Assembly: GCA_950295325.1 (NCBI GenBank)
Contig: OX485807.1
Location: 39,524,440-39,588,439 of the forward strand
Length of the DNA: 64,000 nt
Direction: 5' to 3'
Source: Polytrichum commune
Taxonomy: Eukaryota; Streptophyta; Polytrichopsida; Polytrichales; Polytrichaceae
This document shows positions 315 through 64,000 of the stretch, piece after piece. Below the pieces are notes generated by a model. That model saw nothing but the letters and a program-made list of their open reading frames with translations. It ran no database searches and was not told where the DNA came from. Numbering within the stretch: the first letter of the stretch is position 1; each line of letters opens with the position of its first letter. A program made the position numbers and the translations under genes.

Positions 315-3300
315 TCAAGCCAATGCAGGCTCTGCTCCAATCGCAGGTCTCATTGATTTAACAGGGGTTCGAAGAAGTCGAATTGGGGTGGTGGACATCC
401 CCATGTGTTGGCGAGTGTAGAACTCTGAAAAATCAAGGCGGAAGGAGAGGAACTTCAGATCTACATGTTGTTGAACAGGAAGCTGCGCAATGAATCCTTC
501 AAGTAGAGATGAGTATTCCACTGCGACTCCATCCATCTCCTCCCCCAGGTTTCCTAGAAAGTCACCAGAGAGCTGTGCAGTCGATAGTTTCCTCTGTCCA
601 CTTCGAGCTTTCGAGATTGATTCGTTCTTTGCTCTAGGATTTGATGTTTTGTCAGCCCTGCAGACAAGAGACTTTGTCAATCAAGTTGTCATGTTGTTGA
701 ATATAAGACACTGCTGAAGGACTTGTAAATTGCTGGAGCCAAAAGGTACCTTCATAATCTTAAGACCGTTTTTGTATGTTCCTGGATTGCATTTGTCATG
801 AAAGAATACTTGAAAACAGTACCTGGCCTGAACTTCACGAGCATTTTCATATAGGCGGTCTGCCAGGCCTCTGAATCGTAGAATAAGGTCGAAAAGGCTG
901 AACAGCGTCTTGCAAAGTAGCTGGGAGCGCTCACCCAGAAGGGCTTTTTCCAAGATTGAGCCCAAGTACTTGTCATGGGCACCAATCAGTTCATCGAGAT
1001 CATGAGCCTCCTCCATCTCTTCCAGAAAATTGGACCATGAGTACTCGAGCACCTCAAACATGATGTAATACTGCAAGTTGGTTACAAAGTGGTTCATTTC
1101 ATTTCGTAGGGTTTGACACCTTCGCAAAACAACTGTCAACTGCGATCCCCCTTCTTTATTGGACCAAAGCCGCGCAATCATACAGTTTGGCTTCATTGTT
1201 TGCCAAGTTGCACTAAGGGCATGCTCCACCCGCTTCAATCTCCAGAGGAAGTTGAAGATCTTCAGGTATTTTCCCATGACCTCTTCGGTGAACACTGTGG
1301 TTAAGGGATCTCGAGCATTGTACTCTAAGGAAAAGACATCCCAGCCTCTGTCTCCATCATTGTGAGGCATCATTCGTACTCGAAGACGATCCAAGACATC
1401 TCCATCATCATACTGGGCATTTGAGGCACGAACAGCACTCTCTAATGTCCCAGAAAGTTTGAAAGAACTCAATGTGTTGGCTGCAAGAGCAAGTTCTGGT
1501 CCAACCAGATCCATCAAACACTGAATAAAGTCTCCCTGCCCTAGAAGAAGATATCTCTTGATAGCAAGACAGTGATCACGAAATCGATACCTGTTGCAAA
1601 AGCAAGTCCATTAGTGAAGCCAACAAAGTGAGCTTGTAAATTGAGAAGATGAGCTAGGACCTACACCACAAACAACCAGATAGAGAAACATGCAAAAAAG
1701 ACAAATTTGAGGGAAATTTTACAAAGAAAAAGAAGATTTTGAGTAAGATGGCAGCTTCAAGCAAAAGAGCGTCATACCGGTTGTACATGATTTGGATAAG
1801 ATGCCTGTCGATCCGACCAGCTGCTTCTGAAACTAAGGCCTCCAGTACCTCAGTTTCACCATAGCCAAGACTACCTCCATTAGCAGAAGCTCCAGTAGCT
1901 TTCACTGCTTCTGAGGCAGCTTGTGCCCAGCCTTGATCAGAACAGCAGACTCGTAGGAAATTGATGGATTTCCCTGTTCTCAAAATGCGGTGCGCAAGGG
2001 GTTCAGGGATGAAAGACGGAAGCATGGTCTTTTGAAGCTGATATCCCTCCCGCCACAAGGCCTCAGCTTTCACTGGTTGGGCAAGGACAAAGAATTCTCC
2101 ATAATAATCATCGACCTCGCCTTCAAGCACCCACCTGCAACCTCCAGGAAGCTTAGCTTAGATTAGCCTACAAACTCCAATCATCATAGAACATATTTTT
2201 TTGAGCAGTTCGACTGATTCTAAACAGGTGAGTCAACCCCACCAACCATTGGACAAGGCCCCTTAAGCAGATTTACAAAATAGAAATTGAAGAATTTTTT
2301 TCTATCATGTGTCCTGCTATCAACCCACACGTTTGTCTATTCAGGCTGTGAAAACCAAGCAACTGAGTGGTTTATGTCCAGATAGAGTGACTATCATCAA
2401 TGAAAATTATGAGTATGTTGAAGTAAAAGTCTGGTAACACTGGCATTCATCATATTGGAAGGAACTTGGATGAGATTAGCTTATGGCTATGGGCATCATT
2501 GACTCATTGACTGCCTCTCTAACCAGGCAAGATTCAAGACTTGGCCTTGGTATTTCTAAAAGGTCTAAGACAACCCTGTACCATAACCGCACAATAATGA
2601 TACATTTAAGACTAGAGGAAGAGCTTGAATTTGAAGCAGGTACTGAATCCTTACCTCCGGACCATCTCGAAAAGCGGTGAGCAGACTTGGCGCAACATCC
2701 GTTTTAAGAAAGCACGAACCAAGGGATCTCCATGCTGAGCATGCATGTGTATAGCCCCTGCCATTGCCCCACCCCGTAATGCCTTGCAGTCATCCACCAA
2801 CACAGCCATCAAACGCATCCGCACAAGTGGCTCCCCCAGCCACACCATGAGTCTTCTGAGTGACAGGTAGTTTCCCACGGAGCTAGCGGTTTCAGCTCCT
2901 ACCATCATAGGGATAGGATTATGAACCTGCCCCTCCAGAACTGCCATTAATCTGTAGTAATCTGAAAGCTCTTCTTGTAGCGCAGCACAAAATGCTTGAC
3001 CCACTGTACCGATGGCCTCCAATGGCCCATTCTCAACACTCTCAGAGATGTGATTCTTCACTCTCATATACAACCACCCTACTTCACACAGCCGGCGAAT
3101 TAGGGTTCTAGTAGCTCTGGGTACCTTGACAGATTCCTCAACCATGAACCCATCAGCCTCTTTGTTGAACTTCACATACCGGCCATCAATCCCTTGACAA
3201 GCATACAGAACATCTCGAACTAGGGCCTGCTCCGACACATCTGATTCTGTTTGAATAATTTCTAAATACTCTCTCATTGCTGCTGCCCTTGCATTTCCAT

Positions 3301-4427
3301 CATCTTTTGAGAGAAAGAGAACCCCATTAGGAGAGACTGGTGATTGACCACGCGGTGTTTGTGTCCGAGATGGAGGTAGAGAGGAACCATTTCTAAAAGG
3401 AGATGTTTTGCCAGATGGACTTGGCTCAGGGGAGTAATTTGAGAGCTTGGCATGCGTCACATTCTGTGGCACTGCAGGCAGCCCCCCACGGACAGCACCT
3501 GAAACATGAAGGCATGTGAGAACACAAACTCCTCCAACCAATACTAGGGTGACTAGGAAATTCTAAGAAATGAGCAGAAAATAAAGAAGAACAAACAACA
3601 GAAACAGTGGAATCCAGATGATAATGTGAACATAGGTAAAGAGCAGCACCTGTTAACATAAAAGCATGTGAGCGCACAAACACCAATTCGATTATGGAGT
3701 GACTAAAAATATGACACAAGGTAGGAAATTCTAGGACATGAGCAGAAAATGAAGAAGAACAAACAACAGAAAAAGTGGAATACAGATAAGAATGCGAACA
3801 GACTAACAGAGTAGCACACACAAACTCACCCAATCCAATACTGGAGTTACTAAAATCATGACCCAAGGTAGGAAATTCTAGGACCTCGGCAGAAAATGAA
3901 GAAGAACAACAACAGGGAAAATGGAACCAAGATAAATAATAGTGTGAACAGAGAGGTACAGAGCATGCCTCCTAACCTGAGAGAGTGGAAGTATAAGGGA
4001 TAGCTGTGCCCCTTGTTTCTGCTCTCTCTCTTCTTTGATCCTCAGAAATTGCTCGAAGAAGATACAATAAAGACCACCGATTTTCTATAGACCCGGGCCC
4101 ACTATAAGAGGACAACCTCCTGTGCAAATCTGCAAATTTGAGTGCATCCGAAGACCGATTCTCCTGTACTAACTGCCTCTTGATGGCTTCCGCCATAGCC
4201 CCCTCATCATTTGCCAGAGAAGGAGAGATTCTGCTGCCAATGATGCGCATTGCATATCGATGTGCTCGATCAACCACTGAATCCGAACCTCTCCTATGCT
4301 GCTGCCCATGATGATTTCCTGGACCGTGAGAACCACCATTCTCTTCTCCATCTTTGTTTCCACTAGGAAATATGCGGACAGCAAGCTGCCACACTAGATC
4401 GGCCACTAAGTCCCCTTCCATGGCCAT
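315..4427 (-). CDS. GCP3: Gamma-tubulin complex component 3 (GCP3/SPC98), 5 exons
   Basis: GCP3 is a core subunit of the gamma-tubulin complex that nucleates microtubules; in plants it acts at the nuclear envelope and cortex. Exons read on the minus strand: 4427-3977, 3498-2655, 2134-1778, 1590-823 and 657-315. All junctions are GT-AG and phases match, giving 920 aa (Arabidopsis is about 840). Exon 1 is the variable N-terminal region. Exon 2 carries the conserved N-terminal GCP domain (LVRDVLYACQGIDGRYVKFN, GGAMAGAIHMHAQHGDPLVR). Exon 3 contains ILRTGKSINFLRVCC. Exon 4 has the C-terminal gamma-tubulin-binding domain (NAQYDDGDVLDRLRVRMMPH, FNFLWRLKRVEHAL, MNHFVTNLQYYIMFEVLE). Exon 5 ends with VDLKFLSFRLDFSEFY plus a tail of about 30 residues beyond the usual end. 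The start is the first of two ATGs two codons apart. Intron 1 holds tandem repeats. The family call is very secure; the exact start is less so. Confidence 0.94.
3494..3970. repeat. Tandem repeat (three units of about 150-170 bp) in GCP3 intron 1
   Basis: Units begin near 3494, 3647 and 3812. They share the blocks AGGAAATTCTA (3557, 3722 and 3870 regions) and GAAGAACAA. The first unit contains the real exon 2 acceptor (AG at 3499-3500). The second contains a similar CAGCACCTG block at about 3647, so the splice-site region was copied into the intron. Confidence 0.85.
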
Positions 4428-6877: not shown

Positions 6878-7138
6878 TAGTTGGTGACATGGAGTTGATA
6901 TGTACGCTTTAAGGAGACCGACCCCTCTCTATAACAATCAATGTGAATGACTTCTATAGCATGTCATAACATTATTCAATTGCTTGGGAATCTCAAAACA
7001 ATACTCAACATGGTATGCATGTGTCCATGTGACATGAAATATTCCCTAAATATTGTATAATATATTAGGGGGTAATCCCAACAGTATGATTACTATAATT
7101 CACAAAGTGTTCAAGTGGAGAATCATTGGGGTTCAAGG

Positions 7139-7524
7139 TGTTAGAAGTAAATAGGTTGCAAAGTGAGACAGAGTATTGGTGCGCAATTACTTCAGTGTAT
7201 TCACCCGCCCAAATGGCGGAACAAGGGGTATATATAACAAATGTCTTGGCTTTAGGGTATGAAAGCCAGGTGTCGCAACCACAGCGCACTGTATACTGGC
7301 ATCTAGTCTACCTCAGTATGTACTGGTTGATACCCGCTAATACCCTCGGGATGACCGGACGAGGCCCAGGGTTTTCTGCTAATTGCTTGGATTACAGACT
7401 AAGTGTATGTGTAGATATCCAGGTTAATACCCTGGACCCTTTACAGGTGTATACTCATCAGTCATGGCTGTCTATAAGATAGATTAGTTAACACCTGGTT
7501 GCTAACTTATTAACTATCTTAACA
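7139..7524 (-). repeat. 3' LTR of the Copia element
   Basis: 386 bp. It differs from its partner by C/T, T/C and C/T changes plus one G/A. In element orientation it begins TGTTAAGATAG and ends CTTCTAACA. Confidence 0.97.
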
Positions 7525-7533
7525 CTCCTCCTC
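7525..7533 (-). other. Polypurine tract of the Copia element
   Basis: The minus strand reads GAGGAGGAG directly before the 3' LTR. This is the expected site and composition for the plus-strand primer of reverse transcription. Confidence 0.8.
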
Positions 7534-13309: not shown

Positions 13310-13327
13310 AGGAGCGTGCTGATAACG
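13310..13327 (-). other. Likely primer-binding site of the Copia element
   Basis: On the minus strand the sequence CGTTATCAGCACGCTCC directly follows the 5' LTR. The position is right for a tRNA primer site, and TTATCAGCACG-type sequences are common here in plant Copia elements. I did not assign the tRNA. Confidence 0.55.
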
Positions 13328-13713
13328 TGTTAGAAGTAAATAGGTTGCAAAGTGAGACAGAGTATTGGTGCGCAATTACTTCAGTGTATTCACCCGCCCA
13401 AATGGCGGAACAAGGGGTATATATAACAAATGTCTTGGCTTTAGGGTATGAAAGCCAGGTGTCGCAACCACAGTGCACCGTATACTGGCATCTAGTCTAC
13501 CTCAGTATGTACTGGTTGATACCCGCTAATACCCTCGGGATGACCGGACGAGGCCCAGGGTTTTCTACTAATTGCTTGGATTACAGACTAAGTGTATGTG
13601 TAGATATCCAGGTTAATACCCTGGACCCTTTACAGGTGTATACTCATCAGTCATGGTTGTCTATAAGATAGATTAGTTAACACCTGGTTGCTAACTTATT
13701 AACTATCTTAACA
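13328..13713 (-). repeat. 5' LTR of the Copia element
   Basis: 386 bp and equal in length to its partner at 7139. For the minus-strand element this is the promoter LTR. Confidence 0.97.
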
Positions 13714-14959
13714 CAAGGAAGGGTTCAACGATGGCCATTGGTCAAACACTACAATAGTATAACATGTGGAGAGCTTGTGCCAAGATTAGAGAAGGGAGTG
13801 AAAGGGTCTCTTAGTTATGCTTCTCTTCTCTTTATTTGGTGGTTTAAATCCAAGATCTAATTAATGTGTGCTAAGGTAGACATGCTTGCTTTAGTTACTT
13901 ATCTTAATCGGACACCATTATTTCAATTAGATGTGGTTTGATGTGGTCCCAAGAGTGGATACCAGAGAGACATGTATTGCAAAGAGATTGGACTATGTGC
14001 TTAAAATATGATAACCATTCTAGACTCAAATAGTCGACACAATTTGGAGGACCTATATAACCACTTAATGAGCACACATTTCTTCAATTTGATAATGTAT
14101 AACATATTCATACGAGCTCGGAAAATTATGAGAAAAGTGGCTGCAGCCTCAATTTGTTGACCATCTCATACTAATTGTGTTTCATGTCCTATGAGAAGTG
14201 GGCTAAGTCACAAAAAGTAACCATTTAAGCCCCATCAACCTTACTATGAATTTATGAAAGCTATTTGTTGGCTTGCAACTTACTACATAGAGCTTTACAT
14301 GTGGGTAGCAATAGGTTGCAGGTGCTTGGGCCTGGCCTTGAGCGACCCATGGTTTAACTCCACAATTTGTTTAGATTCGACTAAGATGAAGGCCTAGATT
14401 TACATTCAATCCGGGAATTTTAAGACTTGGATGTATGGGTTCCACATGAACAAATATAATGCCATTGCAAGAGGTCTAACATTATGGTAGTTTATTGTAA
14501 ATATTTCGTAGTTCTGTCATTTAGACAATGAGGGATGATTAGATCTTCTCATTGATCTCAAATTAAAATTGAGCAATCATAAGCTGGATGGATCCAATTA
14601 GATATAAGAGTGAAAATTTTCAGGACATTAGACATATCCATATTGCAGCAAAATGGGATTGAAAGAAGATTCCCCTCAAATGGTTGAAAACTTTATTTTT
14701 TGCCAAACATGTATCTATAGGCCACATGTAAACATCCACTAGCAATGACAGAAGCAACACAATTACAGGGGGATCTCCTCAACCGGGAGAAATTTCATTT
14801 CAAAACAGACTATACTAGTCTTCACAGAAGGTTGTCCACTATAGTTCATTTGATGATCCCTGCAGAAGATTGGAAGTACTCAAGTCATTGCTACCAGCAC
14901 TGACGTTTTGCACATACATTTGACATCCATAGAATGATCTCTGCCGCGTGACTTCCAGC
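13714..14959. other. Intergenic, no gene seen
   Basis: Sequence between the Copia target duplication and the 3' end of the F-box/LRR gene. It is AT-rich with only short ORFs. The 3' UTR of the F-box/LRR gene probably occupies the right part. Confidence 0.4.
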
Positions 14960-32564: not shown

Positions 32565-35500
32565 ACTAAATCACCTCCTCCGATGCCCTCCCCCTCTTCT
32601 TTGCTTCGTTCCACCGCTACCACAACTGCTGCTCTCGCCCTGGGCGATGCGGGGCTCTTGCAATCGGCGTCTTACATCGGACTCTCCTTGTCGTTGCAAT
32701 CCATCCACACGGCGACGCATCGAACGTGAAGCGAGGTTTCGGAGCCTTACCGAAGCCCTCCCTTCTCAAGCGAGGAGGGGAGAGGAGAGGGGAGAGCTAA
32801 AAGAAATGAGCCAAGGGACGGAAAGAAACGATAAAGAAACCCCATGCGTTCGTAAAAGATGTCGGAAAGAAAAGAGGAATCTTGTTGTGTGGGAATCATC
32901 TCTTTTGGGTTTCTTTCCCGAGACCAAAACTTGAACGTGGACTCAATTTTGGGGGAGTTATCATACTAAGGGGTGCGTTCACACTAAGCTCCAAGACTAA
33001 AGAAACTCCAATCTCGAGTGGTTCTATTGGTCAAGAGACCATAGATTTGGATCCAAGGAGTTTACATTAAGGTCCAGGTCCAAGGTGTGAATAAATGAAG
33101 TAGGGCTAATGTGGTGTCACTCTGCCGCCAAATCTTGGTGGGTCCATGTTCAAGAATATACTTTTCCTAGTTTGAGAAACTTACGTAATCATGAAGCTTG
33201 GGTCCACTCTTGAGTCCGAAAGTAAGGTCCTTTAAGGGTGTTTTGGACTCCAAGTTCTAGGATCCATATCCTAATATAAACCCAGCTTTATAGTAGTCAA
33301 CCATTACAAGCCGATGTCTTTCTAACATACTGTAGGTTAAATAAATGTTGGAAGTAACTGAACAGTGCACAATGTCATCAATATTTTTAACATTGACAAT
33401 GAACTTATACTTCATAAGTGAGATATTTGATACAAGGTAAGCTCCCCATAGCTTAAGAAACAAATTTAAAAAAGTAATTTAAAAAAAACAAACAAACAAA
33501 CAAACAAACAAACAAGAAGTTGTGATCATTATTCTTAATGCATAGTTTTTTCCCCCGTGAGTTGCACTTGGATCTAAGGTAGAAGTGCCTACACTTCTAG
33601 CAACAGAGACTCTTCATGTGACAATAATTTTCATAAAGTAATCAACAATGTTAGCAAATCCATAAGGAGGTTGTTGAAGTCAATTTCATTTAATTTTGAC
33701 ACATTGTGATGAAGGTATGATTGATAAAAGCAAACACTTTCTTGCAAGTTGAAGTGTTCAAATAGCCCCCTCCCCCTCCCCCGCCCCCGCCCCATCCCAA
33801 CCAACAGTATTCGGCATCGATCTACCTCTCCAAATCAATGGATTACATTCTCTAAGTTTGTATCAAATTATCATTAAAGCTCACTTGCATAATCACTTTA
33901 AATTATTTGCTGGTGGTTATTTTTTGGGGGGTCTTTAAGTGGTTGGTAACTTGGAACCATTGATTTACTACATGTACACTAATTGATATTGGAGGAAAGT
34001 AACAAGGCCAATGATATGATACAAAAAAAACAAACAAAATATTTCAAAATATAGAAAGTTATGGAATGTGTATTTTCAGCCATCCAAAACAAAGCTCAAG
34101 CAACTTTCACTTGTCTAGGAATTATACTCTTTTCTAAGGGATTGTGCTTCTAGGATGATTTGGCGGGGATCGATGACAGTGACTCTTTCTTCCATGTGTA
34201 TGGATGTAGTGTTAAATCTTGTCTTAGTTGATAACTCATACTTGTTTGTCAATGTCAAACAAGGTCTTTAATTCATATGTTATAATACACCCTAAATTGA
34301 GTTTGGGATCCCCATGCATTTTGGAGTTTATTGAATCTAACGTATCGGTATATGGGTCGTGTATGGTCACTTTTCAACTTCATCTCACACTTGTACATTT
34401 GAGTGGTATTCGTCAAAATGGGATATTCCTGTAAAATTCGATGAAGGCCCAGTCCATAATTACAATATGTTGAATTCTATGGAACGGTCTTCCAATAAAT
34501 ATGCATCTAAAGTTTTAAAATATTTTTAAAAACACAATTTCATCAATTATCAATTAATTAAATATGTTTAATGGTATAATCATTTGCGTGAACATAAGTT
34601 GGATGTGTTTCTTTTATTTTACGTAAGACTAATGTAGGCATTGTTCATTTTCCACTACCTTTAGATGTTTCTATTATCTAATAACATCCAAATAACCGTT
34701 GAGGATTCACATGCCTGTCTCCATGGAATCTAGATACATTGAAAGTGTATTCATAATGAACTTGCCATCAAATTGAGACACCCAATAAACTTTTATTTTA
34801 AAATATGTCAAATTTGACTTATATACAAGTTCAAAGCTTGTAGTTAAAAACAAACACCAAAAAAGGACACGTGCTACAATGAGGTTGGAGTATGTGCTAA
34901 AATTATAGTTTCCATGCTACATTCAATACGTAAAACAATTGAAAGTGCACGTGTGGTCTTTTGAAGAAAAAAAGTCAACATTCCCTTTGACCTCGGAAAC
35001 TTTTGAAACATTCCGATTCCAAAACTTGAAGTAATATTCTTTGTGATTCACAAATGTTGACCGGAGGAAATGCTTCCCAATATCATCCAATGGTCATATT
35101 ACTATATGTGACCCAATATGTGGGGTTTGAAAGTATCCGCAACATGGTCACACGCATTAGTAGGTCTTAGTTACCGGCTTCAATGTGAGGATTTTTTAGG
35201 GTTGGTGCAATGGGGATGATCATGATTAGTGAAAAGCTTAAGGGGATTGGGAGTGGATACCATGATACTTATGGATTGTGTGCGATTGTGTGCTTCCAAC
35301 CACTTTAGATCACACTAATTTTGACAATTTGGATTTAGTGAGCTACATACTAATTTCCCTAAAAAAATGTAATTAGTATAATTAATCTAATGTTGAATGT
35401 TCGATCGATTGTTGTAATACTCTAAAGTAGCTTCCAATATCCTTATAATTAATGTTTAGTATATTACATCTCATCTTATCATTATTTAACTCATGTTGTT

Positions 35501-57634: not shown

Positions 57635-58868
57635 AACATTGGCCGCTTAAATTTGGAAACCATATAGACTTACAACTCTAAATAATCATGGACCCAAATT
57701 CCAAAATTGATCATCTGCACTCATGTTCTTTTGCAACAAAATTATTTCTAAGATATCACTGTCCGCATAATACATCTCTTGCTCCACGTACATGGGTTAT
57801 ATCCAGAGGTTGAACCTCGTAATAAACAAATCCTTTGCGAAACTCACATGATGATCATCATCAAGAGGCAAAGTGAAGGGCACAAAAGATCCATAAGTTG
57901 TAATAATAGCCATTAGAAAGCATGGAACAAATTAAGATACATTGGAGTATGTAATTGGGACACTATTTGTATTGGTAGTATGTGGTCAATTTACTTGAAT
58001 AAAATTATGTTCACTATATATAAAATGGTTGAGTGGAAAATAATACAAGAATAAAATAAAAAAATGCAAAACAATATCTTATTCCAAAAGTATATAATAT
58101 TTACAAAGACTAAACCAATGTCATTATTAGCATGATAATTATGTTAAGGACATGTTCAACAACATTGAGAACGCTTCCCACCCACCTAGACTAGGAGTCA
58201 CAAGGGTAAGCCCATGAATATTGGGTAGCTTATGACGCCCGGATTCTAGAATGCTTAAGATCTCCCCAATTGGAGGTGTAAGCTAGGAGATGTGGTAATT
58301 TGAGTGAGGCGGTGTGGTGGGACAACAATGACTTGGGAGTGGTGCCCAAGATTGCCGAGGTTAGGATATGCATAAATCTTGTAATACTTGCCCGAATGGG
58401 ACAAGTGAGGAGTATATTAGAATCTACGTGAAGAGCAATGTCGATGGACTCGTCACTCCAAAGAATCGGAGATTGGACGACGAAGTTATGGAGGTTTGAA
58501 GCTGCTTGGGGGCTCCAGCCCCAACGGCTAAGAGAAAACGTCAACCTGGCCCCAACTTTTAGGAGAGAGACAAAATGTTTACTTGATGGTGGTGTAGGGT
58601 CCTTGTGCGGATTCCTAGAGGCTTATATGGGAAGAAGAGTTTGTTGTCCGACCCTGCCCGCTGCATAATAACGCGGCCTCCATGGGTGTTGGTCCAACGT
58701 GAGGGCAAAGTTGCCAAGTATGCTTTGGGTTGTTGTAGTGTTGCTCCAGCGACGCAAGACTGGACTCAAGATTGGATGGATATGTACGGATGTCCGCACC
58801 TAACCCTTGGCTACCTACTAAGGGGAGAGTCCCGAATGCACGTGTAAGAGGGTTTGGTAACCAAGTTA
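57635..58868. other. Intergenic, no gene seen
   Basis: No recognisable coding sequence. The frames at 58230-58850 are short and match nothing I know. GC content rises from about 58440. Confidence 0.4.
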
Positions 58869-59663
58869 TTAACCCCTAAAGGACCGTAAGGCCCCCAGGG
58901 GGCTTTTGAGTGTAGAAAAGTGCAAATTGGATGAGATTGTTCCAAAGACGCCCAGATTTTCCAGGAGAAGACCCTGGTTGTTTTTGCGAGATGGATCCAA
59001 TGGTCTTTTCCGATCAGAAAATGATGAAGGATTGGATTTTTGGCGAATTCTTTGAGTCGCCGGAGAGCTTGAAGCTGCTTCGACGGGCTCTCCTGGGCAG
59101 CGTTTGTGGGCAAGCGTGCAGTTCACATGAGAACCAAGCGTGCCGTTTGGTAGAATTGAGGTGTGTCAGGAGTCAGAGGCCACGCGTGAGAGGTTTCTGG
59201 GTTGTTGAGCGGTAAATTCAACTTTCAACGGAGACTGATTGCACCGTTGAACGGAGACCTGCTTTGTGAAGCTGATTGCACCGTTAGAATTTCGCCGAAA
59301 TCAGGTCCTCTGAAATCCTCTCCTCCGAAATCTGAAACTCAGCTGTGTGAGCCAAGAGCGCAGGCGACAAGGGACCCAGCTGCGAATTTCCTCGTTGGGT
59401 TTGATTTGCGGGAGGAAGAATTCCAGTCGAATTTGTTGATCGGCGAGGATAACGGTCACTGTAACAAGCGGTAACAAGCAACTCCACTTTGATTCTGCTT
59501 ATTTCAGAACACGCTCTTGCATTGCAGTATTTTCGGAATAAACAAATACGCTCAATGAGCGCCTGGCTGCATTGTCAACAAATTTTTCGTCTATACACTC
59601 CCTAATTGCTAAAGGCAGATTCAGCTCCTGGTGATCAAACTTGTTGTGGATGGAGCTCGCTTA

Positions 59664-59905
59664 CGTTTACTGCAGGTTGAGAGAGTGCAGGAAGGACAGA
59701 GGAATTTTCACGATTCACACGAAGCTAGAAGTGCTGCGGTTGTGGTGGGTTGTGGTTTGATCCTTTTCTACACTACCTAATTCACCTCTCCGGTGTCCTG
59801 AAGGTTTGTTCTTGAACAACTTCACCTTGTCGTGAAATTTCTGAAATGGTTGTGATCGCCTTTACTGCAGGTTGAGAGAGTGCAAGAAGGATAGAGAAAT
59901 TCGGT
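59664..59905. repeat. Direct repeat of about 45 bp, 197 bp apart
   Basis: TTTACTGCAGGTTGAGAGAG followed by a GTGCA(G/A)GAAGGA block occurs at about 59666 and 59863, in the leader of the piggyBac-like element. Confidence 0.85.
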
Positions 59906-60140
59906 TCGGAGGAACAGCGGGAGAGAGACACAGAGAGAGGTAGGTGTTCCAAACTTTGGTGAGGCGCTCATCTTTTGTGATGTTGCTATGTCGCATGTGC
60001 GAGTCTCATCTTCGGGAATTTGGAGGATATTGTATCAGTGAGTGAGAATTGAGAAGAAACTCAATATGGTAGGTTTAGTTGCACCAGGCACCTTTGCGAG
60101 AGGGAGAGAGAAGCTGGTAACAAGCGGGGAGGTAGAAGCG

Positions 60141-60397
60141 TTCAGAATCCATGCTAGAAGCGTTCAGTTAGAATCCTCTAAGTTCAGAATCCTCCAAGTT
60201 CAGAATCCTCTAAGTTTGAATGCCTCTAAGTTCAGAATCCATGCTAGAAGCGTTCAGTTAGAATCCTCTAAGTTCAGAATCCTCCAAGTTCAGAATCCTC
60301 TAAGTTTGAACGCCTCTAAGTTCAGAATCCATGCTAGAAGCGAGAGGGAGAGAGAAGCGGGTAACAAGCGGGGAGGTTCTAACTTAGAGGCGTTCAG
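60141..60397. repeat. 90-bp tandem repeat plus inverted repeat
   Basis: Units start at 60141 and 60231, with a partial unit at 60321 (TTCAGAATCCATGCTAG). The two full units differ at about one base. Inside each, TCCTCTAAGTTCAGAA-like words repeat. GAACGCCTCTAAGTT (60308-60322) is perfectly inverted at 60381-60395. A flanking block GAGAGGGAGAGAGAAG occurs at both ends (60098, 60342). Confidence 0.9.
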
Positions 60398-61203
60398 TCA
60401 TAATCCTACACATGGTAGCTTCGCGCCATTTCAATCTGTTCCCCCAAAATGGTTTTGACCTCTGAAGTTTTGAGCTTCTTTGGTGGAATTGACAAAGTGG
60501 AGCTTTTTGCCAGTTATTGGCCTTGTAAGTTGTGACCTCCTCAACCCAATCCAAAAGTTGCCTGGCTTACTCGCTAAAGGACCCCTAGTCAGCATGACCA
60601 GTGACTAGTCTAACCAACAATCCATCTCAAGTTTACGGTGCAGGGAGCTGTAATTGAACACACCATATTCTTATGTAAGACTGACGAAGGTGAATGGAAA
60701 CAGATTATATAATTATATAATAAGCACATGATCCATCCTAAGCAGCGAAATGATCCGAGTAATTGCGGTTACCTGATTCCGGTTCGTGAACTCTGAATAA
60801 GAGCCAGTGATTTTCTGGATGAGGTATGACGCTCCTGGCTTTGAACCAAAGTTTCATGCAGAGCTAATAAGTTCTGTGTTGCAACTGGACAAAGAAGTGG
60901 AGTTTTTTGCACTTCTAGTTGCAATTCGTTGCTACTCAATTCAATTGTCTCTCTTGAACTTAGAAATTCTTGCGACTCTGTCTTCTTCATTGTAGTAATC
61001 TGCACCCACAAACCACGCAGGTACTAGTTTTTCTCCTGGTTTTGAGTTATTTGTGGGTTTTCGGAGCTTCTTGGGTGGAACTGGGAAAAATTGGAGTTAT
61101 CTGAGCTGGAGTTTATTTGCATGTGAGCTAGAATTTGACTTCGTATTGAGCATCTGAGCTAGATTTTTTTTGGATATGTGCTAGAGTTTGTGCACCATAA
61201 AAG

Positions 61204-61569
61204 ATGGCCATTGTCCATGGAGAGGCTCACATTGTTCTATCTGAAGCGAGAGTTGCTGTGGCAGCTTGGGTGAGAGAAGATTTGCAGAAGTCAGATGATG
61301 TTGTAGCGGACCTTGTTTCCCTGTTGGATGAGGATATTTTGGTCAGAGCTCCGCGACCAAAGGGTGTGAGATTGCCAAAAAAACTGGAGGCACGGAACTT
61401 GCGATATTTGTGGAGGCGTGTGGTGGCGCATCGGTTGGGGTGGCGCCAACGACGGAGCGAGGGAGACGAGGGATCATTTACGACGAGTGTAAATTCTGCA
61501 CTGAGGCGCTTGTGGCCGGACCGAGCCAGCGAGGACAAGAACGATGGGCAGAGCTCGCAAGCGGTGTAA
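61204..61569 (+). CDS. 121-aa ORF overlapping the transposase start
   Basis: Begins MAIVHGEAHIVLSEARVAVA, has a clear ATG, and overlaps the transposase ORF by 26 bp in another frame. It is Arg-rich in the middle (LRYLWRRVVAHRLGWRQRR). I do not recognise it. It might be an accessory protein of the element, an N-terminal exon of the transposase, or chance. The overlap resembles a bicistronic arrangement. Confidence 0.35.
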   Translation: MAIVHGEAHIVLSEARVAVAAWVREDLQKSDDVVADLVSLLDEDILVRAPRPKGVRLPKKLEARNLRYLWRRVVAHRLGWRQRRSEGDEGSFTTSVNSALRRLWPDRASEDKNDGQSSQAV

Positions 61570-63855
61570 AACCACCCCTCCCCCTGTCATTATCAACATT
61601 TCTGGCACCGGCAGTCCGATTGTGAATGTGGGTTGTGATCATGTTGTTGTTCGTAGTGAGGCTAGGACGTCCTCTAAAGTAGTAGGTCCTGAGTCCACGA
61701 GTCAGAAATCTTTGTTCACTTCTGATAATGAAAATGAGCCGTTGGGTTCTAATTCTCATTTGGATGGAGTGGGTTCTCCTAATTTATCGCGAGAGACTCC
61801 TCATTTGAAACTGGGTTTGAGATCTAATTCTAGGCGCCCGCTTATCCCACCATTGCATACACTTGGGCGTTGTGGTCAAGTTGTGAGGGTCCCGTGTATT
61901 GAACTCCCCGATGTCATGTGGTTAGATGCCAATTTTTCAGAGTCTGACTACCTCTGGGGAACTGTCATGAATGAATATTACGAACTGACCCATGGTTTGA
62001 CATTTTTGAGCGTCCAGTTGTATGGTGTTTTTGGGTTGCACGATGTACCCGAGGTCGTGGTAGAATGGGTGGATGAAAATGATGATGTCCTTGAAGTGCC
62101 CACACAACAAATGTGGGCTCTTTCTGGGGAATATCCTAGTGACAATGATAGTGACTACCAACCGAGTGACCAAGGAGAGGAGGACCCCTTGGAAACCACG
62201 AATAAATTGACTCCAAAAACCCGAACTTGGTTTATGGAATCTAATAGGGCGGACCATGAACTTGGCATCGGGTATGGGGATTTTGACTATCTAGATGGGT
62301 TATCCGAGAAAGAAAGGTTTGCGGAACACATGTGGAATTCGCCGGTATCGTCCATTCCACATGTAGAGTGGCGAGGTGGGTCCGAAGGTTTCAAGGACGG
62401 ATTGGGCGAGTTTGAGAGTTTAGAGGAATATTTGATGTTGTTTTGGCCGCTAAACATGATGCGTAAAATTGTACGAATGACGAATTTGTATGCCGGTCGA
62501 TCTAACGGGGAAAGTGGTACATTAGGTGGGCCAAAGTGGGTATATTTGACCGTGTCCGAATTGAAATCTTGGTTTGCAATTGTAATTTTGATGGGTCTAA
62601 AAAAAATTCCAAACCAAAGGTTGCATTGGTCCTCTACTGATATGTTCCATTCGCGAGAAATTAGCTCTATAATGTGTAGAAGAAGATTTGAGGACATATT
62701 GAGATGTATACATCTTGTTGATAACGACCACATAACTACAAATAAAGATGAACCAAGTTATAGCAAAATCGCCAAATGTGAGTGGTTAGTGCGCGAGCAT
62801 AATGCGTTGTATTCCCAATATTGGCAACCCGAGCAAAACCTTACCATTGATGAGATGATGGTAAAGTATTGTGGGAAATATTCACCTATTAGACAATATA
62901 TGAAGGCAAAGCCCACTCAATATGGCATAAAAATTTGGTGTTTAGCAAATAGTGTGTCAAAGTATGTCCAAAAAATGGAGGTTATTGCGGTAAAAGTGAA
63001 GAATGTGAAGGTGAAGATCAAAATACCGGTTACAAAGTGGTGACTAGTTTAGTGAGCGGGTTAGAGCACGTGGGACATGTGATCACTTGCGATAATTGGT
63101 TTACAAGTCTAATTTTATTTTGGGATCTTTTGAAACTCGGTTTCAGAGCTACTGGGACTTGCAGAACCAATAGGCGAGGTTGGCCAAGTGCATTGACAAT
63201 TGACAAGGGTAAAGCCGTTAGAGCAGTTCCTCGTGGTACAATGTGGTGGCGAATGCACGCATCACATCAAATGGCTGCTGTCACTTGGCTTGACAACAAG
63301 CCGGTGACAATTTTGACTACGGCTGTGTCCCCCATAGATGTAACAAATGACTTGTTTGTGGGCAGATGGCATAAAAATGCCGTAAAAGACATCCCTTGCT
63401 CACCCGCATTGGTACATTACCAATACCACATGCGGGGAGTAGATGTGCAAGATCAATTGCGGGGCAATTATTCTGTACAAACACGGGATCACAAATGGTG
63501 GCATAGAATTTTGTTACATTTATTAGATACATCTCTTGTCAATGCATATATTTTGTACCGTGCTCGTATGCAAAGGATGGGTGAAAGTGTGATGAGCCGA
63601 GTAAAATTTCACTATGAAGTGACCACCAAGATGTGTACTTCGAATGTGCAGCGCAGGCGTGTCAATCCTCATCGAGCGGGCATTCCCAACCCGGATGCGT
63701 TGCATTATACCTTGTTTTGGACACGCAGCGAGGGAAAAGTAACGCGGAGAAAGTGTGTTGTATGCGGGAAGCGGCAACAATTCTATTGCCCCACATGTGG
63801 AGACATTCCAGTTTGCATGGGCGATTGCTTTGTAGCACACCATAGTAATTGTTGA
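61544..63855 (+). pseudogene. piggyBac-type transposase with one frameshift
   Basis: Cut-and-paste DDE/D transposase (DDE_Tnp_1_7 type), about 770 codons in all. After an acidic N-terminal region (about residues 60-260) comes the piggyBac core: LKSWFAIVILMGLKKIPNQR, LHWSSTDMF, FEDILRCIHLVDN. Catalytic aspartates are seen in LTIDEMM (codon at 62849), TCDNWFTS (63091) and TWLDNKPVT (63292); MRGVDVQDQLRGNYSVQ follows. The cysteine-rich C-terminal finger is CVVCGKRQQFYCPTCGD with CMGDC and H/C residues. The frame breaks near 62980, where one base seems missing. The first frame runs to a stop at 63043 and the second is open from 63037 to 63855. All catalytic motifs are kept, so the break looks recent. 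Confidence 0.92.
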
Positions 63856-64000
63856 TGATCATGTACTATTCGCATGTCATTTGCGATTTTTATTGCGATT
63901 TTTTTCCAAGTCCATATGTATCATGATTTATGTACACTCTAGTATGAGTAAGGATTTATGAGAATGAAGAATGTAAGGGTGATTTTTTATTTTTTTTTAT
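63856..64000. other. 3' flank of the transposase, inside the element
   Basis: AT-rich; holds repeated TTGCGATTTTT words (63880-63905) and ends in T-rich sequence. No terminal repeat is seen before the window ends. Confidence 0.4.

Follow-up and report, generated by a model that had tools for sequence, protein, structure and literature searches.

The end of the 64-kb stretch of moss DNA analyzed here (the window) carries a DNA transposon of the piggyBac superfamily. The whole element runs from 58,873 to 64,606, measures 5,734 bp, and extends 606 bases beyond the window. Its features, in window numbering continued past the last base where needed, are as follows.

58869..58872 (no strand): left copy of the TTAA target-site duplication, matching TTAA at 64607-64610, outside the window
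58873..58886 (+ strand): left terminal inverted repeat, CCCCTAAAGGACCG; the right end matches it at 14/14 bases, inverted
58873..64000 (+ strand): in-window portion of the 5,734-bp element, without internal TTAA; the element ends at 64606
58891..58903 (no strand): perfect palindrome of 13 bases (GCCCCC-A-GGGGGC) close to the inner edge of the left terminal repeat, read from the sequence
60140..60342 (+ strand): tandem repeat of a 90-base unit, ~2.25 copies, in the element's long 5′ non-coding part
61544..62981 (+ strand): transposase part 1, with the N-terminal region, the first DNA-binding/dimerisation region, and the first catalytic Asp at 62849
61847..62128 (+ strand): additional conserved N-terminal stretch of 94 residues, common to the relatives P0001, P0002, and P0003
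62983..63855 (+ strand): transposase part 2, with the other three catalytic Asp codons (63091, 63442, and 63451) and the stop codon TGA
63754-63843 (+ strand): C-terminal cysteine-rich finger CVVC..CPTC..C..C..HH, from its Cys/His pattern and the piggyBat alignment
64593-64606 (extended numbering; 6033-6046 of L011): right terminal inverted repeat, followed by TTAA at 64607-64610

The original prediction had described a nearly intact piggyBac-like transposon in a plant genome and had pointed past 64000 for the right terminal repeat and its TTAA, where the extended sequence places both. The terminal inverted repeats are short, start with CCC, and are the same, 14/14, in all three complete copies examined (the window copy and two others), each of which is flanked by TTAA at both ends. 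By itself, the string TTAACCC is weak evidence for an end, since it occurs six times on the + strand of the window; the 14/14 inverted match, the TTAA on both sides, and the two further complete copies exclude chance ends. Three other inverted matches to the left tip in the window (at 33223, 18826, and 60567) were set aside as chance after each was read. The palindrome at 58891..58903 is a possible transposase-binding site. Searches of the 64-kb window returned no Rfam families and no tRNAs, and the small frames upstream of the transposase had no Pfam match.

The transposase

The transposase is read in two frames that overlap. It starts with the ATG at 61544 and stops with the TGA at 63853-63855, and the window copy has a single frame break near 62,982. 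Both pieces match the Pfam family PF13843 (DDE_Tnp_1_7; E = 4.3e-37 and 1.9e-25) and, by sequence, the PDB chains of piggyBac (6x67) and piggyBat (9c0f). As the original prediction had it, the catalytic motifs and the C-terminal finger are kept on either side of this one break: all four catalytic Asp are in place, with codons starting at 62849, 63091, 63442, and 63451. The D1-D2 spacing of 80 residues lies inside the published range of 78–85, and the D2-D3 spacing of 116 lies slightly beyond the published 98–113 (PMC10813416). The fold of the relative P0003 resembles those of piggyBac 6x67 and piggyBat 9c0f (E = 1.2e-29 and 6.0e-26). The finger scores 14.4 bits against Pfam zf-Tnp_2, under the model cut-off of 24, and is therefore identified by its Cys/His pattern and its alignment with piggyBat. 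The 94-residue N-terminal stretch has no Pfam match, and its structure was modeled with low confidence (mean pLDDT 46.6).

The element thus combines a PF13843 transposase, DDD residues and an RNase H-like fold, a TTAA duplication, CCC-starting terminal repeats, and a C-terminal Cys-rich domain, the features by which the piggyBac superfamily is recognized. By analogy with the solved piggyBac relatives, the transposase would bind the inverted-repeat ends, its Asp residues would excise the element at TTAA, and the excised element would be inserted into a new TTAA, duplicating that site. Judging from its one frameshift, the window copy is unable to make full-length transposase.

Copies in the moss genome

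The 408-Mb genome contains 118 matches to the PF13843 profile, of which 19 cover nearly the full length without a stop, and all seven of the contigs C1-C7 carry such matches. Two further complete copies of the window element (L020 and L029) lie on other contigs; one of the two is 99.6% and the other 99.4% identical to it. The three share the same ends, have differing flanks, and are 99.35–99.62% identical in pairwise comparison. The frames of the window copy and L029 are both broken, and that of L020 is unbroken, with 770 codons, no stops, and a match to PF13843 at E = 1.3e-69 covering model positions 4-349 of 349. Autonomy requires that some copy keep its transposase frame open; L020 does and the window copy itself does not, but the L020 transposase could act on it in trans. 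The near identity of these complete copies on separate contigs, together with the open frame of one of them, therefore indicates that the family moved recently, bearing out a lineage proposed from the window copy alone to have been recently active, and the family may still be active today. L020 and L029 differ by one synonymous and eight non-synonymous changes in 613 codons, too few for a selection test. A second piggyBac family of this moss likewise appears recent.

Contamination or misassembly, with an animal or fungal transposon artificially joined to plant sequence, would account for the names among the protein relatives: those named among the matches listed are all animals (one in one search, six among the best 120 of 164), with no plant protein by name. 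Against this, the element sits inside a 52.9-Mb contig, the host genes in the window are moss genes, and the named animal sequences fall outside the window's transposase clade of 47 rows. In a NUP107 tree, the window gene clusters with Sphagnum and six other rows and is separated from the liverworts, ferns, and seed plants, a placement that identifies the host as a moss other than Sphagnum. Complete copies on three contigs, each with different flanks, refute contamination, which is also excluded by the 118 profile matches in the genome; we regard this origin as extremely improbable. The outcome that would have spoken against the original prediction, an element with no kin in its own genome and with its top hits confined to animals or fungi, did not occur.

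The broken frame of the window copy would also suit a relic or a domesticated transposase gene that no longer moves, and one lineage of the same genome looks gene-like. This P0159-like lineage comprises 11 loci with frames of 575–946 codons and has dN/dS of 0.10–0.15 (15 pairs from six of the 11 loci); its loci were searched for TTAA-bounded inverted repeats and none were found. In the window family, by contrast, the ends are perfect, the target site is duplicated, nearly identical copies occupy unrelated sites, and one frame is unbroken; we consider a relic or a domesticated gene very unlikely. Domestication was rejected: a PGBD-like gene would have lost its ends and its mobility and would sit at a single conserved locus, whereas this family retains its ends and duplications and has copied itself recently. 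With high confidence, we interpret the window element as an autonomous DNA transposon of the piggyBac superfamily, 5.7 kb long, that moves by cut and paste, resides in the moss nuclear genome, and was recently active.

Absence of internal TTAA

The entire 5,734-bp element contains no internal TTAA, against 17.7 expected under a Markov null. The null is calibrated, predicting 275.4 TTAA in the rest of the window (275 observed) and 191.4 in the flanks (179 observed). Among AT-only tetranucleotides, TTAA alone is missing from the element. It ranks first of 256 as the most depleted tetranucleotide both in the window family and in the second family, two families roughly as divergent from each other as distinct piggyBac lineages. 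Elsewhere in the window, the longest TTAA-free run is 1,879 bases, and a Copia element contains 36 TTAA.

Chance, base composition, or a host mutation bias could nevertheless replace selection as the explanation, and three observations lean that way. Synonymous shuffling somewhat overstates TTAA (28 observed versus 37.8 expected in seven other coding pieces of the window), and the three window-family copies amount to one case because they are 99.4% alike. Other lineages of the genome are not clearly depleted: P0162-like elements have 2, 2, and 3 TTAA versus 4.4, 4.7, and 6.1 expected (ranks 32, 23, and 27 of 256), and P0159-like frames sum to 23 versus 42.1 by shuffling and 34.0 by the Markov null. 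Set against the calibrated null, the rank of TTAA in two unlike families, and the TTAA content of neighboring sequence, these points leave a non-selective origin unlikely, and chance was rejected for the window element. Selection against self-insertion is the likeliest explanation: the element would have lost every internal TTAA as carriers were probably destroyed by its insertion into itself or sister copies. With moderate confidence, we favor the conclusion that selection has removed their own target site from certain mobile piggyBac families of this moss.

Searches beyond the family gave no relative in viral contigs, no match in plasmids and phages, and no relative in genome contigs with alignment A2; alignment A4 recovered two contaminant piggyBac loci from the genome contigs. 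One of these (L001), an animal-type piggyBac frame for which terminal ends were sought and none placed, has 1 TTAA versus 5.9 expected, a weaker deficit hinting that the phenomenon may extend beyond mosses. The other (L002) has 0 versus 1.35, too few expected to inform.

The laboratory piggyBac transposon is reported to autointegrate at TTAA, and neither piggyBac nor Sleeping Beauty to be capable of self-avoidance, in an assay where element length and target-site number were inseparable (Wang et al. 2014, PMC3952818). A natural 5.7-kb element without an internal target separates the two. The purge, if real, is the new and surprising part of the finding: with no, or hardly any, internal TTAA, an element would go unrecognized by the integration machinery it encodes. 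Such self-avoidance, written into the sequence, would spare long elements both suicidal insertion into themselves and nested insertions of sister copies. It makes directly testable how long cut-and-paste elements with a strict target escape self-destruction. In practice, a TTAA-bounded, TTAA-free stretch locates the ends of such elements.

Comparison with known piggyBac elements

piggyBac elements are best known from animals. The original prediction fairly called them rarely described from plants, and "first" would go too far: their occurrence in plants is stated in PMC10140906 and PMC10813416, a repeat table for the fern Ceratopteris has a piggyBac row (PMC6890710), and PiggyBac MITEs are reported from angiosperms (PMC10004981). 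These four papers likewise place piggyBac in land plants, but in the passages concerned they give counts or mentions, with no complete autonomous element and no moss. A literature search, mostly outside subscription journals, found no moss piggyBac and no TTAA-depleted piggyBac. As earlier papers mention plant piggyBac in general terms, the moss element is an addition to a known group. What it adds is a moss family that is complete and recently active, in which the ends, the target-site duplications, and one unbroken frame are all defined. The family offers a basis for building a native transposon tool for plants and a way into the question of how piggyBac came to land plants and has been maintained there.

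Close relatives are metagenome and SRA sequences (P0001, P0141, P0004, and P0002), each a partial protein, 80.9–98.5% identical in the aligned parts; P0003 is 49–51% identical to the window transposase, and all five fall in its clade (SH-aLRT 100). Within the genome, the P0136-like (L003-L007, L027, L028) and P0162-like (L019, L025, L026) families share with the window element CCCCTAA-starting inverted repeats and flanking TTAA where ends were located. They differ in having another repeat sequence, another transposase, and 2–3 internal TTAA, and the P0136-like family has a second frame, of 671 codons, ahead of the transposase.

The Trichoplusia ni piggyBac (PDB 6x67/6x68) shares with the moss element the catalytic fold, the Asp residues, CCC-starting terminal repeats, and a duplicated TTAA target. 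It is shorter (2,472 bp versus 5,734 bp), shows low sequence identity, and carries internal TTAA, and the additional N-terminal stretch belongs to the moss transposase. The bat piggyBat (PDB 9c0f) is the PDB entry that the second transposase piece matches best, and it has a similar C-terminal Cys/His finger, but its sequence identity to the moss transposase is low, it belongs to an animal clade, and the element is shorter than its 5,734-bp moss counterpart.

Ends, transposase and host of the element

The window element is a piggyBac-superfamily transposon with a total size of 5,734 bp, whose left TTAA is followed by CCCCTAAAGGACCG and whose right end, predicted to lie past 64000, was located in the genomic continuation of the contig. 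The coordinates, in window numbering, are as follows.

58141–58868: GC-rich stretch (about 0.41–0.51) directly left of the element, with AT-rich DNA further left; possibly what is left of an older repeat
58869–58872: left boundary TTAA
58873–64606: window element, running past the window end
61204–61569: 121-codon ATG frame in another reading frame, overlapping the transposase start, with no Pfam match
61544–63043: first transposase frame, from its ATG start
61847–62128: 94-residue N-terminal stretch of the transposase, common to the window family and the metagenome/SRA relative P0003, with no Pfam match
62953–63855: second transposase frame, ending in TGA
64593–64610: exact inverse of the 14 left-end bases, then TTAA
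7135–13714, minus strand: Copia retrotransposon with LTRs at 7135–7525 and 13324–13714 (98.7% identical), itself an insertion of fairly recent date

The transposase is open in two overlapping frames and therefore carries a single frame break, placed near 62,982 by alignment to a sister copy with an unbroken frame. It retains four catalytic Asp residues and a Cys/His finger, in agreement with the original prediction of a near-complete enzyme interrupted once. Both pieces match the DDE_Tnp_1_7 transposase domain (PF13843), and their only sequence matches in the PDB at an E cut-off of 0.001 are piggyBac and piggyBat. The same two proteins are the first fold matches of a model of P0003 (mean pLDDT 71.8; alignment of 26 sequences), followed by Tn5. 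The β-strands that this model places in the 94-residue stretch are of low confidence, and modeling the stretch by itself gave a poor result.

Also present in the window are exons for NUP107, gamma-tubulin complex, and AAA ATPase. NUP107, a frame of 711 codons, shares 99% identity with one JGI/SRA protein and about 70% with others; Sphagnum compactum (62%) is its best species-named match in a listing that covers 120 of 434 rows. In a 23-row NUP107 tree, the window groups with Sphagnum (100/100), within the sister group of Sphagnum (99/98), and liverworts, ferns, lycophytes, and seed plants are all separate from it. This placement identifies the host as a non-Sphagnum moss.

Genomic copies and protein relatives

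The genome searched is a 407.8-Mb assembly of 64 contigs, of which C1–C7 measure 42–78 Mb each; the window occupies positions 39524440–39588439 of C5. It contains at least 118 stretches matching PF13843 (stretches rather than copies, and a lower bound with 116 of 169 candidates scored), 19 of which cover nearly the full profile and are stop-free; the same profile gave no match in any of 14 control genomes. Copies were examined in 20 genomic stretches and eight further loci, revealing two more complete members of the window family, L020 (C2:2246614–2252357) and L029 (C7:39297137–39302880). Both carry the 14-bp ends of the window copy, bordered by TTAA at each end, and lie in unrelated surrounding DNA. 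The frame of L029 is broken separately, at its own break, and L020 has an unbroken 770-codon frame, supplying the kind of intact copy whose search had been proposed as a check. Pairwise identities among the three copies are 99.62, 99.36, and 99.35% across 5.7 kb. Given this divergence of 0.4–0.65% and insertion sites that are not shared, the copies arose recently, bearing out the proposal of a recently active plant lineage.

A protein search with the first transposase piece retrieved 11 proteins and a profile-based search 164 (120 listed). The organism-named rows are all animal, one in the former and six among the 120 listed in the latter, and no species-named plant protein appears among the listed matches of either search, which may reflect only transposon masking in plant annotations. 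A quick tree built from the window row plus 89 of 124 collected proteins joins the window to three metagenome/SRA relatives, P0001, P0004, and P0141 (SH-aLRT 100), within a 47-row clade (100) that excludes all animal-named rows.

TTAA content of piggyBac lineages

Between its two boundary TTAAs, the window element contains no internal TTAA. For its 5,128 in-window bases, a Markov model predicts 15.2, and 1,000 dinucleotide shuffles gave a mean of 24.5 and a minimum of 11. Over the full element length, the Markov model predicts 17.7–18.0, and no TTAA occurs in any of the three copies, which count as one case of depletion, not three. TTAA is the most depleted of the 256 tetranucleotides in this family, and one-mismatch neighbors such as CTAA and TTAT show no depletion. 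The Markov null does not run high, with 275 observed versus 275.4 expected in the rest of the window and 179 versus 191.4 in the flanks. Synonymous-codon shuffling of the coding part (2,000 runs) gave a mean of 7.2 and never zero. Across seven further coding pieces from the window, 28 TTAAs are observed versus 37.8 expected, so this null is about a quarter too high; scaled by that ratio, the L020 coding expectation falls from 7.4 to about 5.5. Evidence from the coding part alone is thus of only moderate strength, and the argument depends on the whole-element figure.

A second moss lineage, P0136-like, has 564-codon stop-free frames at five loci that are 98.2–99.9% identical across 2.9–4.1 alignable kb. 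Both ends were found at the two loci examined at length, L027 (5,972 bp) and L028 (5,971 bp). L027 contains 2 TTAAs versus 17.5 expected (rank 1 of 256), both near its ends, at positions 66 and 5563. Upstream of its transposase lies another frame, 671 codons long and free of TTAA (2123–4135); translated from the first Met (665 aa), it matches no Pfam family at E 0.1. A decayed P0136-like locus with a 238-codon frame holds 2 versus 2.5 expected.

P0162-like elements contain 2, 2, and 3 TTAAs versus 4.4, 4.7, and 6.1 expected (ranks 32, 23, and 27 of 256). The P0159-like lineage comprises 11 loci (L013–L018, L021–L024, L030) with piggyBac-derived frames of 575–946 codons, mostly about 76–85% alike in DNA, whose summed frames hold 23 TTAAs versus an expected 34.0 (Markov) or 42.1 (synonymous shuffling). 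A search for TTAA-bounded inverted repeats at these loci found none. The catalytic Asp residues are retained in 10 of 11 loci, all those aligned, and dN/dS is 0.10–0.15 (15 pairs, 6 of 11 loci). From these sequence features, the lineage may be a moss gene family that has been domesticated while remaining catalytically competent.

Animal-type piggyBac transposases also occur on contigs filed under Aquifex (L001, QNXQ01000067.1) and Rhodobacteraceae (L002, JAPOSK010000255.1) MAGs, probably as eukaryotic contaminants of these bacterial assemblies. The L001 frame holds 1 TTAA versus 5.8–5.9 expected, a count as low in 3 of 1,000 and 0 of 400 shuffles.

Self-insertion as a probable reason for the loss of the target site

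Judged by its family membership, the window element would move by cut-and-paste at TTAA. piggyBac is known to insert into itself at TTAA, with greater vulnerability for larger elements (PMC3952818). At neutral TTAA density, a 5.7-kb element would present some 18 target sites to sister copies and to excised copies of itself, and selection against self-insertion is the best-supported cause of the purge. The weak or absent P0159-like deficit fits immobile sequences free of such selection, but this lineage was not chosen in advance as a control and its loci have a common origin. The modest P0162-like deficit, despite the ends of these elements, is not explained by selection against self-insertion unless they are younger in the genome or weakly active.

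The window element is ordinary in kind, a piggyBac, and unusual in host and state, being complete and recent in a moss. The insect piggyBac element contains internal TTAA, and the purge is therefore not universal; the unexpected feature here is the whole loss of an element's own target site, which is strong in two families and testable.
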